Assembly: GCF_011761265.1 (NCBI RefSeq)
Contig: NZ_JAAOZB010000001.1
Location: 1,612,001 to 1,676,000, forward strand
Source of the DNA: Microbacterium halimionae
GTDB taxonomy: Bacteria; Actinomycetota; Actinomycetes; Actinomycetales; Microbacteriaceae
DNA: 64,000 nt
Direction: 5' to 3'
Shown piece after piece: positions 7,519 to 26,552 of the stretch (its first letter is position 1; every line of letters starts with the position of its first letter). The translations under genes were made by a program, and so were the position numbers. The notes under the pieces were generated by a model. It did no database searches and was not told the origin of the DNA. It saw only the letters and a program-made list of their open reading frames with translations.

Positions 7519-7602
7519 GCCGAAACGCTGCTTGCACGAGTGAAACGCCGGGCTGTGGCATCCGTCTATCGGCGTGGTGCGGTGCCCGAGCAGCGTTTCG
7601 GC
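7519..7602. repeat. Inverted-repeat element, copy 1
   Basis: An 84-bp element with perfect 14-bp inverted ends: GCCGAAACGCTGCT at 7519-7532 and its complement at 7589-7602. The interior contains TATCGGCGTG twelve bases before the right arm, a position shared with copy 2. Copies 2 and 3 lie at 24622-24704 and 25736-25818. It sits between the rpsO terminator and the stop of the convergent oxygenase gene, at the point where the usual rpsO-pnp adjacency is broken. The interior has no coding capacity. Confidence 0.75.
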
Positions 7603-23800: not shown

Positions 23801-24559
23801 GTGACGGATGCCACTTCCCAGACTGAGACCGACGCCCCAACCATCGAGTTCCGCAGCGACATGAGTGTCGAACTCATACGCTCCAGTGCTGCCGACGCTG
23901 ACGTGCTGTTCGCCGCACGCGTCTCGACGCAGGGCGAGCAGACACTTGAGTCCGCTGCTGCCGGGACCGAAGCATCCGGTCGCGATCGTGGACTTATTAA
24001 TTACCTGATGCGCGACCGTCACGGCTCGCCCTTCGAACACAACTCGATGACTTTCTATGTGCAGGCGCCGATTTTTGTCTTCCGTGAATTCATGCGGCAC
24101 CGCACGGCGTCTTACAACGAAGAATCGGGCCGCTACCGCGAGTTGCGTCCGGTATTTTATGTTCCTGCCAACGATCGGAATCTCGTTCAGGTGGGTAAGC
24201 CCGGCGCGTATGACTTTTTGCCCGGTTCGCCCGAACAGAGCGAGCTCGTAGACGCAGAAACACGCGAGGCATCCGCTCGTGCGTTCGAGTCTTACCAAAA
24301 GATGCTTGACGCGGGTGTTGCGCGCGAGGTCGCTCGCATTGTGCTGCCGCTCAACATTTACTCGTCGATGTACGTCACCATGAATGCTCGCGCGCTGATG
24401 AACTTCCTTTCCCTTCGCACCAAGGTAGAAGGAACCCATTTTCCGTCGTTCCCCCAGCGTGAAATCGAAATGTGCGCGGAGAAGATGGAAACAGTGTGGG
24501 CTGAACTCATGCCAATGACGCACGCCGCGTTCAACGCGAACGGCCGAGTTTCTCCCTGA
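23801..24559 (+). CDS. thyX: FAD-dependent thymidylate synthase
   Basis: A 252-residue flavin-dependent thymidylate synthase that makes dTMP from dUMP. The ThyX signature RHRTASYNEESGRY is present (about residue 100), with SPFEHNSMTFYV before it and RARWALNFL-equivalent NARALMNFLSLRT after. In actinobacteria dapA usually follows closely; here about 2 kb containing a nuclease gene, repeats and a NUDIX gene intervenes. Confidence 0.96.
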   Translation: MTDATSQTETDAPTIEFRSDMSVELIRSSAADADVLFAARVSTQGEQTLESAAAGTEASGRDRGLINYLMRDRHGSPFEHNSMTFYVQAPIFVFREFMRHRTASYNEESGRYRELRPVFYVPANDRNLVQVGKPGAYDFLPGSPEQSELVDAETREASARAFESYQKMLDAGVAREVARIVLPLNIYSSMYVTMNARALMNFLSLRTKVEGTHFPSFPQREIEMCAEKMETVWAELMPMTHAAFNANGRVSP

Positions 24560-24621
24560 TCTCGCCGTCCCGACCGGACCCGGACGTTGTCCTTTCGGTC
24601 TATTCTCTCGACGCGCAATTC

Positions 24622-24704
24622 GCCGAAACGCTGCTTCCCGCGTGCGGCGCGCCGCAGCCTCACCAGACTGTCGGCGTGTCTGGGTCGGACACCAGCGTTT
24701 TGGC
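24622..24704. repeat. Inverted-repeat element, copy 2 (slightly degenerate)
   Basis: An 83-bp element. The left arm GCCGAAACGCTGCT at 24622-24635 is identical to copy 1. The right arm ACCAGCGTTTTGGC at 24691-24704 has two changes. The interior TGTCGGCGTG lies twelve bases before the right arm, as in copy 1. It sits between thyX and the nuclease gene. The rest of the 240-base gap here shows nothing further. Confidence 0.7.
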
Positions 24705-24798
24705 TCATGCATGGGCGAAGTCACCTCTCGTCCACACGTGGAGCGTGGGGGAAGTGATCCCCAGATCCGGGTGAATCACACAGTGCGTTCGGCTCTGC

Positions 24799-25689
24799 GT
24801 GAAGTGTCAAGGGATGCTCAACCACTCTGTCGAGGCGTGTCTCCGTGCTGGAGGTGTCGCGCGCACGCGCACCCTCCGAAGCGCCGGCATCCCGCGTTTC
24901 TTCTTCGAAGAGGCCGTGCGCGAAGGCGTACTCATTCGCCCGCGGCGCGGAATCTACGCCATGCCCGAAACTTCACCGTCCCTCGTGCACGCGTTGTCAC
25001 ACCGCGCGGTTTTGGCTTGCGTAAGCGCTGCCCACCACTTCGACCTGTGGATGCTGGAGGCAGACAATCCGGAGAAGCCCCACACGTGGGCGCATCCAGA
25101 TAGGCAGACGACAAGGCCACCCGACTGCGATTGTGTATGCCATCGCGACCACCCAGTCGGACGCTTCACCCTCACGACCGTGAGCGTGCTGCAGTGCCTA
25201 GTGCAGCTCGCGAGTTGTTGTGGATCAGAGTCCTTTCTCTGCGCTCTTGAGTCTGCGAGACGCCGTGGCCTGATCTCTCCGGCGCAACTAATTGAACTGC
25301 GACGCCGCGTGCCTGCTGCGGTTCGTCCGTTGATCGATTTTTCACGCGCCGATGCCGACAGCGGTTTGGAGACGCTTGTGCGTTACCGGCTGCACCTTCT
25401 GGGAATCGAGTGTCTGAGTCAGGTTCGGTTGACTGGAGTAGGAGTCGTGGATCTGATCGTCGGTGATCGCCTCATAGTCGAGGCCGACGGCTCCACTCAC
25501 GACGGCCCCGGAAGACACCGCGACCGTGTCCGAGATGCTGCCGCGTTAGCGCTTGGCTTCGTCACGCTCCGTTTCGACACCGCGATGATTCTTCACGATT
25601 GGCCGGCGGCCGAGGCCGCGATCATCTCTGCTCTCAGCCTCGGTTTGCATGAGAGCCCGCTCGGACTCCGCGTCCGATCGTCGCTCTGA
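24799..25689 (+). CDS. AbiEi-like winged-helix plus DUF559 (Vsr-like) endonuclease protein
   Basis: A 296-residue protein with an N-terminal winged helix like those of AbiEi antitoxin-type proteins (ARTRTLRSAGIPRFFFEEAVREG, then RPRRGIYAMPE, about 20-55). Its C-terminus is DUF559-like, related to very-short-patch repair nucleases of the PD-(D/E)xK fold: Glu in SGLETLVRY (about 190), Asp in VVDLIVGD (about 217), and VEADG (about 228). The middle is Cys-rich (CDCVC, ASCCG). No partner toxin gene is adjacent. The gene is flanked by two copies of an inverted-repeat element and interrupts the thyX-dapA neighbourhood. The start is uncertain: GTG 24799 or ATG 24814, neither with a good Shine-Dalgarno. 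Confidence 0.78.
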   Translation: MKCQGMLNHSVEACLRAGGVARTRTLRSAGIPRFFFEEAVREGVLIRPRRGIYAMPETSPSLVHALSHRAVLACVSAAHHFDLWMLEADNPEKPHTWAHPDRQTTRPPDCDCVCHRDHPVGRFTLTTVSVLQCLVQLASCCGSESFLCALESARRRGLISPAQLIELRRRVPAAVRPLIDFSRADADSGLETLVRYRLHLLGIECLSQVRLTGVGVVDLIVGDRLIVEADGSTHDGPGRHRDRVRDAAALALGFVTLRFDTAMILHDWPAAEAAIISALSLGLHESPLGLRVRSSL

Positions 25690-25735
25690 GCTGCAGCGAC
25701 CCCACCCGCCCTGCAGCGACCGCCGCCGCACGGTC

Positions 25736-25818
25736 GCCGAAACGCTGGTGAGCGCGCACGACACACCGGGCGGCAGCATCCGCAACCGGCGAGTCGGCAG
25801 CAAAAGCAGCGTTTCGGC
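25736..25818. repeat. Inverted-repeat element, copy 3
   Basis: An 83-bp element with left arm GCCGAAACGCTGGT at 25736-25749 (one change from copy 1) and right arm AGCAGCGTTTCGGC at 25805-25818 (identical to copy 1). The interior is 55 bases, as in copy 2, and contains CAACCGGCGAG at the position of the conserved TCGGCGTG. It lies 46 bases after the nuclease stop codon. Confidence 0.75.
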
Positions 25819-25854
25819 GGATGGAGAAGGAGAAAAAGGAGAGAGGAGACGAGA

Positions 25855-25977
25855 GGGGACGAGAAGAGAGGGGGAGAGAGGGGACGAGAAGAGAGGGGGA
25901 GAGAGGGGACGAGAAGAGAGGGGGAGAGAGGGGACGAGGGGGAAGAGAAGAGAAGAGAAGAGAAGAGAAGAGAAGAG
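25855..25977. repeat. Tandem repeats: three 25-bp units and (AAGAG)7
   Basis: Three perfect 25-bp units start at 25855, 25880 and 25905, each beginning GGGGACGAGAAGAGAGG, and a partial fourth starts at 25930. They are followed by seven copies of AAGAG at 25943-25977. All lie within an almost all-purine strand, a composition that can form triplex or slipped DNA. No spacers separate the units, so this is not a CRISPR array. Confidence 0.9.
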
Positions 25978-26009
25978 TGGACGAGAGGGGACGAGAGGAG
26001 CTGAGGGCG

Positions 26010-26552
26010 CTAGCGGAAACGACCGAGGTGGATGCCTGCGTACATCAGAGCACCGATGGTCTCACCATCGGTGATGCTGCCATCGGCGATACGTTCCAGC
26101 ACCTCGGGGAACGGAATCCACTCGACCAGGTCGATCCCCTCCTCATGCTGGCTTGTCGTGGCATCCGTTGCTGTTGTGAGTGCCCGGGCAAGGAAAACAT
26201 GCTCGGGGGCGTTAGCAATCCCATTGAGGGCATTCATTTGACCGAGCCACGTCCAGTCGGCAGCCTCGTAGCCGGTTTCTTCGAGCAACTCGCGCTTTGC
26301 CGCGATGAGCGGCGATTCGCCGTCGGATCCGCCGGCCGGCACCTCGCTGGAACGCTCATTCGTGGGATATCGATCGAGAGTGAGAAGACAGATTCGCTGT
26401 CGTTCGTCGACGGCAACGACAAAAACCGCAGGATGCTGCATCTCAACCACGCCGTAAATGCCGGTTCCGTGCGGGCCAACGACTTCGTCCTCTCGCACGC
26501 GAATCCAATGGTTCTCATAGACGGTACGGGTGCTCTGGGTATGCCACGCCAT
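26010..26552 (-). CDS. NUDIX hydrolase (ADP-ribose pyrophosphatase-like)
   Basis: A 180-residue NUDIX hydrolase. The NUDIX box runs through AGGSDGESPLIAAKRELLEETGY (GX5EX7REX2EEXG pattern), preceded by EVPAGG as in ADP-ribose pyrophosphatases. It cleaves a nucleoside diphosphate linked to another moiety; the substrate is unproven. The ATG at 26552 has a TAGGGT -10 box seven bases upstream and matches the usual N-terminus. It is divergent from dapA, 60 bases apart. Confidence 0.88.
   Translation of the reverse strand: MAWHTQSTRTVYENHWIRVREDEVVGPHGTGIYGVVEMQHPAVFVVAVDERQRICLLTLDRYPTNERSSEVPAGGSDGESPLIAAKRELLEETGYEAADWTWLGQMNALNGIANAPEHVFLARALTTATDATTSQHEEGIDLVEWIPFPEVLERIADGSITDGETIGALMYAGIHLGRFR

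Follow-up and report, generated by a model that had tools for sequence, protein, structure and literature searches.

Why does a nuclease gene in an actinobacterial genome lie between two copies of the same short palindrome, and do gene and palindrome belong together? The question is raised by a locus of Microbacterium halimionae, which lies in a stretch of 64,000 nucleotides (hereafter the window, the whole stretch of DNA that was analysed) of a 2.94 Mb genome. An earlier note, made from the letters of this stretch alone, had suggested that a winged-helix DUF559 nuclease gene and two flanking copies of an ~83-bp element form a selfish or domesticated REP-nuclease unit. This guess gained support from our analysis, as brackets of matching palindromes recur across species and around three nucleases in the same genome. 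The features of the window on which the analysis is based are the following:

7519..7602, no strand assigned: dispersed copy 1 of palindrome family A, 84 bp, between convergent genes; the orthologous site in the sister genome G285 is occupied
24622..24704, no strand assigned: copy 2 of palindrome family A, 83 bp, with thyX on one side and the nuclease gene on the other
24799..25689, + strand: gene for an AbiEi-like winged-helix/DUF559 (Vsr-type) nuclease, GTG start with an alternative ATG at 24814; Pfam AbiEi_4 and DUF559 above cut-offs
25736..25818, no strand assigned: copy 3 of palindrome family A, 83 bp, 3′ of the nuclease gene; a counterpart exists in G285

The palindromic element and the nuclease gene in the window

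Both elements around the nuclease gene proved to be real, and each measures 83 bp. The earlier note had placed them 95 bases before and 46 bases after the gene; the second distance was confirmed, and the first was corrected to 94 bases from the GTG or 109 from the ATG. The 14-bp ends that it described as shared also exist, but they are the arms of an imperfect palindrome, which pair at 12 of 14 positions in copy 2 and at 13 of 14 in copy 3. In copy 1 all 14 positions pair. Overall, family A elements are nested palindromes of 83–84 bp with outer arms of approximately 13 bp and inner arms of approximately 10 bp, and their spacers are variable in sequence and nearly constant in length. With at most two mismatches allowed, the window contains 12 occurrences of the 13-mer compared with 5.2 expected, and none of 100 shuffles reached 12. 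The hairpins predicted for the elements are strong. Base pairing in the family A spacers is near chance level, and in families A and C each palindrome half carries an outer and an inner motif, which suggests that the halves are double-stranded half-sites rather than parts of one long hairpin. A scan of the window against Rfam at gathering scores returned no family. Behind copy 3, at 25840–25977, we observed a GA-rich tandem array with a period of 25 and approximately 5.6 copies, which is missing at this place in G285.

In the encoded protein, Pfam AbiEi_4 covers residues 11–51 (30.6 bits, cut-off 25) and DUF559 covers residues 195–273. PADLOC AbiEi models match the N-terminal half, and NCBIfam gave no match for the 2 proteins searched. 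The AlphaFold2 model has a mean pLDDT of 90. Its residues 1–178 resemble the AbiEi structure 6y8q (Foldseek E 2.5e-5, Z 8.1), and three structures resemble its residues 183–280: 3r3p, which is the homing endonuclease I-Bth0305I of the EDxHD type (Z 9.1 over 94 residues), 3hrl, a DUF559 protein (Z 8.7), and 1vsr, which is Vsr (Z 6.6). When the PDB was searched by sequence, 3hrl was the sole match (E 0.0014). The putative active-site residues E186, D213, E223, D225 and H229 do not vary among the 18 sequences compared. The prediction combines a DNA reader of the AbiEi type with a nuclease of the Vsr/EDxHD type. No AbiEii-like partner was found among the immediate neighbours, which are thyX, a NUDIX-like gene and dapA as named by reading their translations.

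Family A copies in the genome and in a sister genome

At least 13 copies of family A were found in the genome that contains the window, all on contig C1; this count is a lower bound, as copies with both arms decayed would escape it. Ten of them have exact arms, and the same pattern read backward, used as a control, gave 0 matches. Two of the 13 copies bracket the nuclease gene and 11 are scattered. All of them are intergenic, with 7 in convergent, 4 in tandem and 2 in divergent settings according to manual reading of simple ORF calls.

In the sister genome G285, the nuclease-palindrome unit likewise lies next to thyX and dapA, in the corresponding position, and the counterpart of copy 2 is damaged in the right arm. 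This comparison with one sister genome, where the place is occupied, revealed no site that lacks the whole unit. An orthologous counterpart in G285 exists for 12 of the 13 family A elements. Since these sites are common to both genomes, movement of the palindromes appears to be slow or past, and none was observed to be recent. The thirteenth element (C1:731800) sits in a stretch that is missing from G285. This gene-sized stretch (C1:730455–731968, locus L003) corresponds to ~180 bp between matching flanks in G285, and a near-twin of the palindrome lies at 732371. At one further site the element is present in Microbacterium sp. Leaf288, M. trichothecenolyticum and G557 and absent in G513 and G515. 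This is a gain or a loss; its ends are not clean, so it does not provide a clean empty site.

Comparison of the 12 element pairs between both genomes showed identity at 309 of 336 positions in the outer arms and 205 of 240 in the inner arms, compared with 261 of 424 in the spacers and loop and 984 of 1440 in the 60-bp flanks. The arms of family A are preserved, either by constraint or by being kept uniform, and the other parts drift. The same pattern, arms preserved and middle drifting, disfavours the possibility that the elements are relics of MITEs.

The element family across the genus

The exact family A arm pair was absent from the 198 other genomes of the bacterial family that were searched. 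We also built a structure-and-sequence model, R1, from the copies in the M. halimionae genome and scored at most 11 candidates per genome. At E 0.001, R1 had matches in 117 of 366 genus genomes, including the one it was built from, and the idea of a unit private to that genome was rejected on this genus-wide detection. In the best R1 loci the inner palindrome is near-constant and close to CGACACGCCG...CGGCGTGTCG. The outer arms vary by lineage yet stay complementary, with changes on both sides at 13 of 13 outer pairs in an alignment of 92 rows, which was fitted to the structure and contains both strands of most elements. An independent MAFFT alignment of 21 elements displayed compensatory change too, and for cells changed on both sides none of 500 shuffles was as high. 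Within the 13 copies of family A alone, covariation is weak. Across 59 genomes, R1 matches and the nuclease clade showed no clear co-occurrence (12 of 17 vs 22 of 42 by manual count), with a model that is biased toward the arms it was built from.

We derived a second model from 21 diverse elements. It produced 7 to 91 strand-hits in each of the 14 genomes chosen, where one element is mostly counted on both strands. Copy numbers of the palindromes reach tens per genome. Arrays occur as well: four copies lie ~207 bp apart in L068 and three are closely spaced in L063.

Palindromes bracket many of the nuclease genes

With a profile of the nuclease clade we kept the best 80 of 251 relatives as named Microbacterium and Agromyces loci. 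According to synteny, these loci occupy few conserved places, chiefly groups of 32, 17 and 13. In the group of 17, dapA lies directly downstream of the homologous nuclease gene in 15 loci. The earlier description of the gene as interrupting the usual thyX-dapA order is misleading, since a nuclease gene with dapA downstream is a recurrent arrangement in this group.

Elements with the inner motif are concentrated at the nuclease genes. We counted 92 in the 94,475 bp that lie no more than 600 bp from a gene, including near matches that are doubtful by eye (L080 of Microbacterium ulmi, L129, L142 and L148), and 27 in the remaining 896,260 bp, a 32-fold difference in density. They are found on both sides of the gene in 28 loci, on one side in 12 and on neither in 40. 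In a motif-free test, genes were scored for inverted repeats on both sides with shared arm words. Bracketing was detected for 37 of the 80 nuclease genes and for 3 of 330 control genes of similar size from the same loci (Fisher p 9e-27). Shuffled flanks gave 0 of 80; this control covers the 80 named loci, and the 30 class-level loci described below have no shuffles of their own. An inverted repeat with arms of at least 10 on at least one side was present at 68 of the 80 nuclease genes and 88 of the 330 controls. Altogether 52 of the 80 loci passed either the inner-motif or the motif-free test, and 28 failed both, including L075, the closest named homologue among the best 80 of 251. The earlier note had regarded copies scattered with no DUF559 association as evidence against its proposal. 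Most copies in the genome of the window are indeed scattered (11 of 13), but the association is strong, and the copies do not refute the proposal.

Each nuclease has its own arms

We compared the arms upstream and downstream of the same gene with those of other loci. Agreement in at least 9 of 10 bases was found within 27 of 28 loci, compared with 96 of 756 pairs drawn from different loci (permutation p 1e-4). Protein distance and arm distance are correlated in Mantel tests of 36 loci, a set that omitted L080, L129, L142, L148 and L110, with r of 0.48 both for the whole protein and for its middle part, 0.39 for its first 60 columns and 0.34 for its nuclease part. In the group of 17 with dapA downstream, the arms still vary among species. 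In the group of 13, L099 and L114 carry the same arm on both sides, with shorter palindromes from which the inner motif is missing. A side observation concerns L099, L107, L114, L145 and L150, where the spans are mostly ~40–90 bp, the arms are like TCCCGATCTGCTG and there is no inner CGACACGCCG.

Dispersed copies were assessed with 40 matches of the second model from ten genomes, of which L223 and L232 were set aside as nuclease-flanking. Thirty of the remaining 38 carry the arm, or a variant of it, of the nuclease locus known from their own genome, partly as judged by eye; the script reaches this number by counting a tie (L216, which carries the second arm by eye), the cognate variant of L231 scored just under that of another genome, and the count by eye is 30 of 38 too. 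A second arm is found in the other 8, which come from Microbacterium sp. Leaf288 (five) and M. ureisolvens (three). One of the second-arm copies, L212, has a second nuclease homologue at most 1.2 kb away, which shares 68% identity with another member of the clade over 244 residues.

The genome of the window itself contains more than one such pair. A second nuclease gene (C1:1345899) is bracketed by palindromes with arms AACTCAGGC; exact pairs of these arms number 9 in the genome, including the two at the gene. Similarly, a third (C2:803748) is bracketed by arms CGGAGAATC, with 6 exact pairs, all of 62 bp and two of them at the gene. Backward-pattern controls for both arms gave zero. Three nucleases are accordingly accompanied by three palindrome families, which comprise at least 13, 9 and 6 copies and each include dispersed ones. 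Overall, five DUF559-type genes were found in this genome. C1:431780 showed no shared brackets, and for C1:1365223 (L011) the bracketing test is weak, the locus having been cut around the domain instead of the gene. Behind the latter gene, at L011:1802–1859, we noticed a 58-bp palindrome with perfect 19-bp arms. Elsewhere, a dispersed family-B palindrome (C1:962801–962885) lies ~170 bp from a family-A palindrome at 963055, with two families in one intergenic region.

Each of these nuclease genes is tied to a palindrome family of its own, and we regard it as highly probable that gene and family are a cognate pair.

Relatives beyond the close clade

In a class-level search, a relative of the nuclease was present in 127 of 246 genomes. 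We examined 30 of the class loci, 8 from the close clade and 22 from outside it. Seven of the 22 (L249, L250, L251, L257, L259, L264 and L266) are bracketed by a shared-arm palindrome pair, and their arms are quite different. Within the close clade, only 2 of the 8 loci from this search passed the strict bracketing test. Nine more distant bracketed proteins, among them the paralogues from the M. halimionae genome, match either DUF559 or MTES_1575, a related Vsr-type domain; for four of the nine, the matches stay below curated cut-offs. An AbiEi model was reported for 4 of the 9, and none at E 0.01 for the other 5. MTES_1575 is named in a HEPN fusion according to PMC3710099. L264, from another family of the class, has bracketing palindromes with very different outer arms in which an inner CGACACGCC-like motif appears again. 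Given this recurrence despite the different outer arms, the inner motif may be old.

Alternative explanations

The AbiEi-like half of the protein could have a role in regulation. It could repress the gene with the upstream palindrome as operator, as in abiE, and the dispersed copies could be binding sites or decoys that check a toxic nuclease, with nothing moving at all. AbiEi itself is reported to bind two 23-bp inverted repeats, 3 bp apart, at its own promoter and to repress it (PMC3985639), and conserved arms between sister species are what binding sites would show. An operator, however, would not readily account for the matching copy behind the gene, for arrays and tens of copies per genome, or for the settings of the copies in the M. 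halimionae genome, which by manual reading lie between convergent genes in 7 of 13 cases and between divergent genes in 2. We consider this explanation unlikely, and an operator role may coexist with spread or upkeep of the palindromes.

The resemblance of the N-terminal half to PADLOC AbiEi models also brings defence to mind, AbiE being described as an abortive-infection system (PMC3985639). As a defence or toxin-antitoxin system, the nuclease would attack foreign DNA bearing the palindrome, and the genome's own copies would be marks or sinks. No AbiEii-like partner was seen among the immediate neighbours as read from their translations, and the genes occupy fixed genomic places common to many species, which makes this reading improbable. 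Finally, the palindromes would very improbably be structural, terminator-like intergenic elements with an incidental nuclease neighbour: their strong predicted hairpins and intergenic positions, frequently between convergent genes by manual reading, fit such a role, but a simple terminator scan of the unit (24500–26100) gave no terminator-like site, and neither the 32-fold density at the nuclease gene nor three nucleases with arms of their own would be expected.

Comparison with known systems

The closest analogue of the nuclease-palindrome unit is the RAYT-REPIN system. In Pseudomonas fluorescens SBW25, three RAYTs each have their own adjoining REPIN cluster (PMC3116915). REPINs, as described there, share with the palindromes studied here the dispersed intergenic placement of short paired palindromes, an enzyme gene beside its cognate repeats, several enzymes per genome each with its own repeat group, and tandem arrays. 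RAYTs, however, are IS200-like Y1 (HUH) transposases, whereas here the enzyme is a winged-helix DUF559/Vsr-type protein, the repeats are others and the host is an actinobacterium. As the enzyme class differs, the unit is an analogue of RAYT-REPIN and not a member of that family.

AbiEi of the type IV toxin-antitoxin system AbiE is similar to residues 1–178 in predicted fold, and Pfam AbiEi_4 matches within this part. Here, in contrast, this part is fused to a nuclease domain and the palindromes lie on both sides of the gene and dispersed; in AbiE, AbiEi is also bicistronic with the AbiEii toxin, of which no counterpart was seen among the immediate neighbours as read from their translations. 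Residues 183–280 are predicted to have the catalytic fold of the EDxHD homing endonuclease I-Bth0305I and of Vsr, and contain conserved acidic and His residues, but the gene is free-standing between palindromes rather than in an intron, and any cutting or homing is putative. Integron attC sites resemble the element in their nested inverted repeats, comparable length and the gene between two copies; they differ in that here the arms are specific to each nuclease and the copies are mostly single. The attC core motif is not matched by the element, and integron cassettes were set aside on this motif and the mostly single copies.

Proposed mechanism and its meaning

We propose a cognate nuclease-palindrome system that resembles RAYT-REPIN and employs an unrelated enzyme, a model that we consider fairly probable as a whole and in which binding, cutting and mobility are inferred. 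The nuclease gene sits between copies of its own palindrome and, as the sister genome and synteny show, keeps a fixed place over species. Its AbiEi-like half would read the outer arms, and its Vsr/EDxHD-type half would nick or cut there. Repair or replication of these cuts could copy the palindrome to new intergenic places or keep the copies uniform, which would make the palindromes passengers that depend on the nuclease and are themselves non-autonomous. The arms change together with the reader, being shared by the two sides of one gene and different in other genes and species. Evidence against the model comes from the 28 of 80 loci that failed both bracketing tests, the 2 of 8 close-clade loci of the class search that passed the strict one, the 12 of 13 family A sites common to G285, and the lack of clear co-occurrence of R1 matches and the nuclease clade. 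That spread or upkeep of the palindromes runs through the nuclease is a reading we slightly favour. Our view leans to a similarly small degree towards a wider one, in which fusions of an AbiEi reader and a Vsr nuclease with cognate palindromes are actinobacteria-wide selfish or domesticated replicators independent of RAYT/REPIN, with each nuclease reading its own arms, room for several orthogonal pairs in one genome, and readers that co-diverge with their arms.

In the openly licensed PubMed Central literature, judged by titles and the beginnings of abstracts, we found no description of this pairing; absence there is not proof. The same arrangement in relatives, with palindromes of other sequence, suggests an enzyme-and-repeat partnership of an undescribed kind. 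So far, the RAYTs are the one enzyme family to which REPINs have been linked. If our model is true, partnerships between an enzyme and its palindromes would have evolved more than once, the second time with an unrelated enzyme. The model would also account for a large family of actinobacterial palindromes and give DUF559 a testable role. The many natural reader-arm pairs would help to understand how a winged-helix protein picks its DNA, and co-diverging readers and arms would constitute a natural set of matched protein-DNA specificities.
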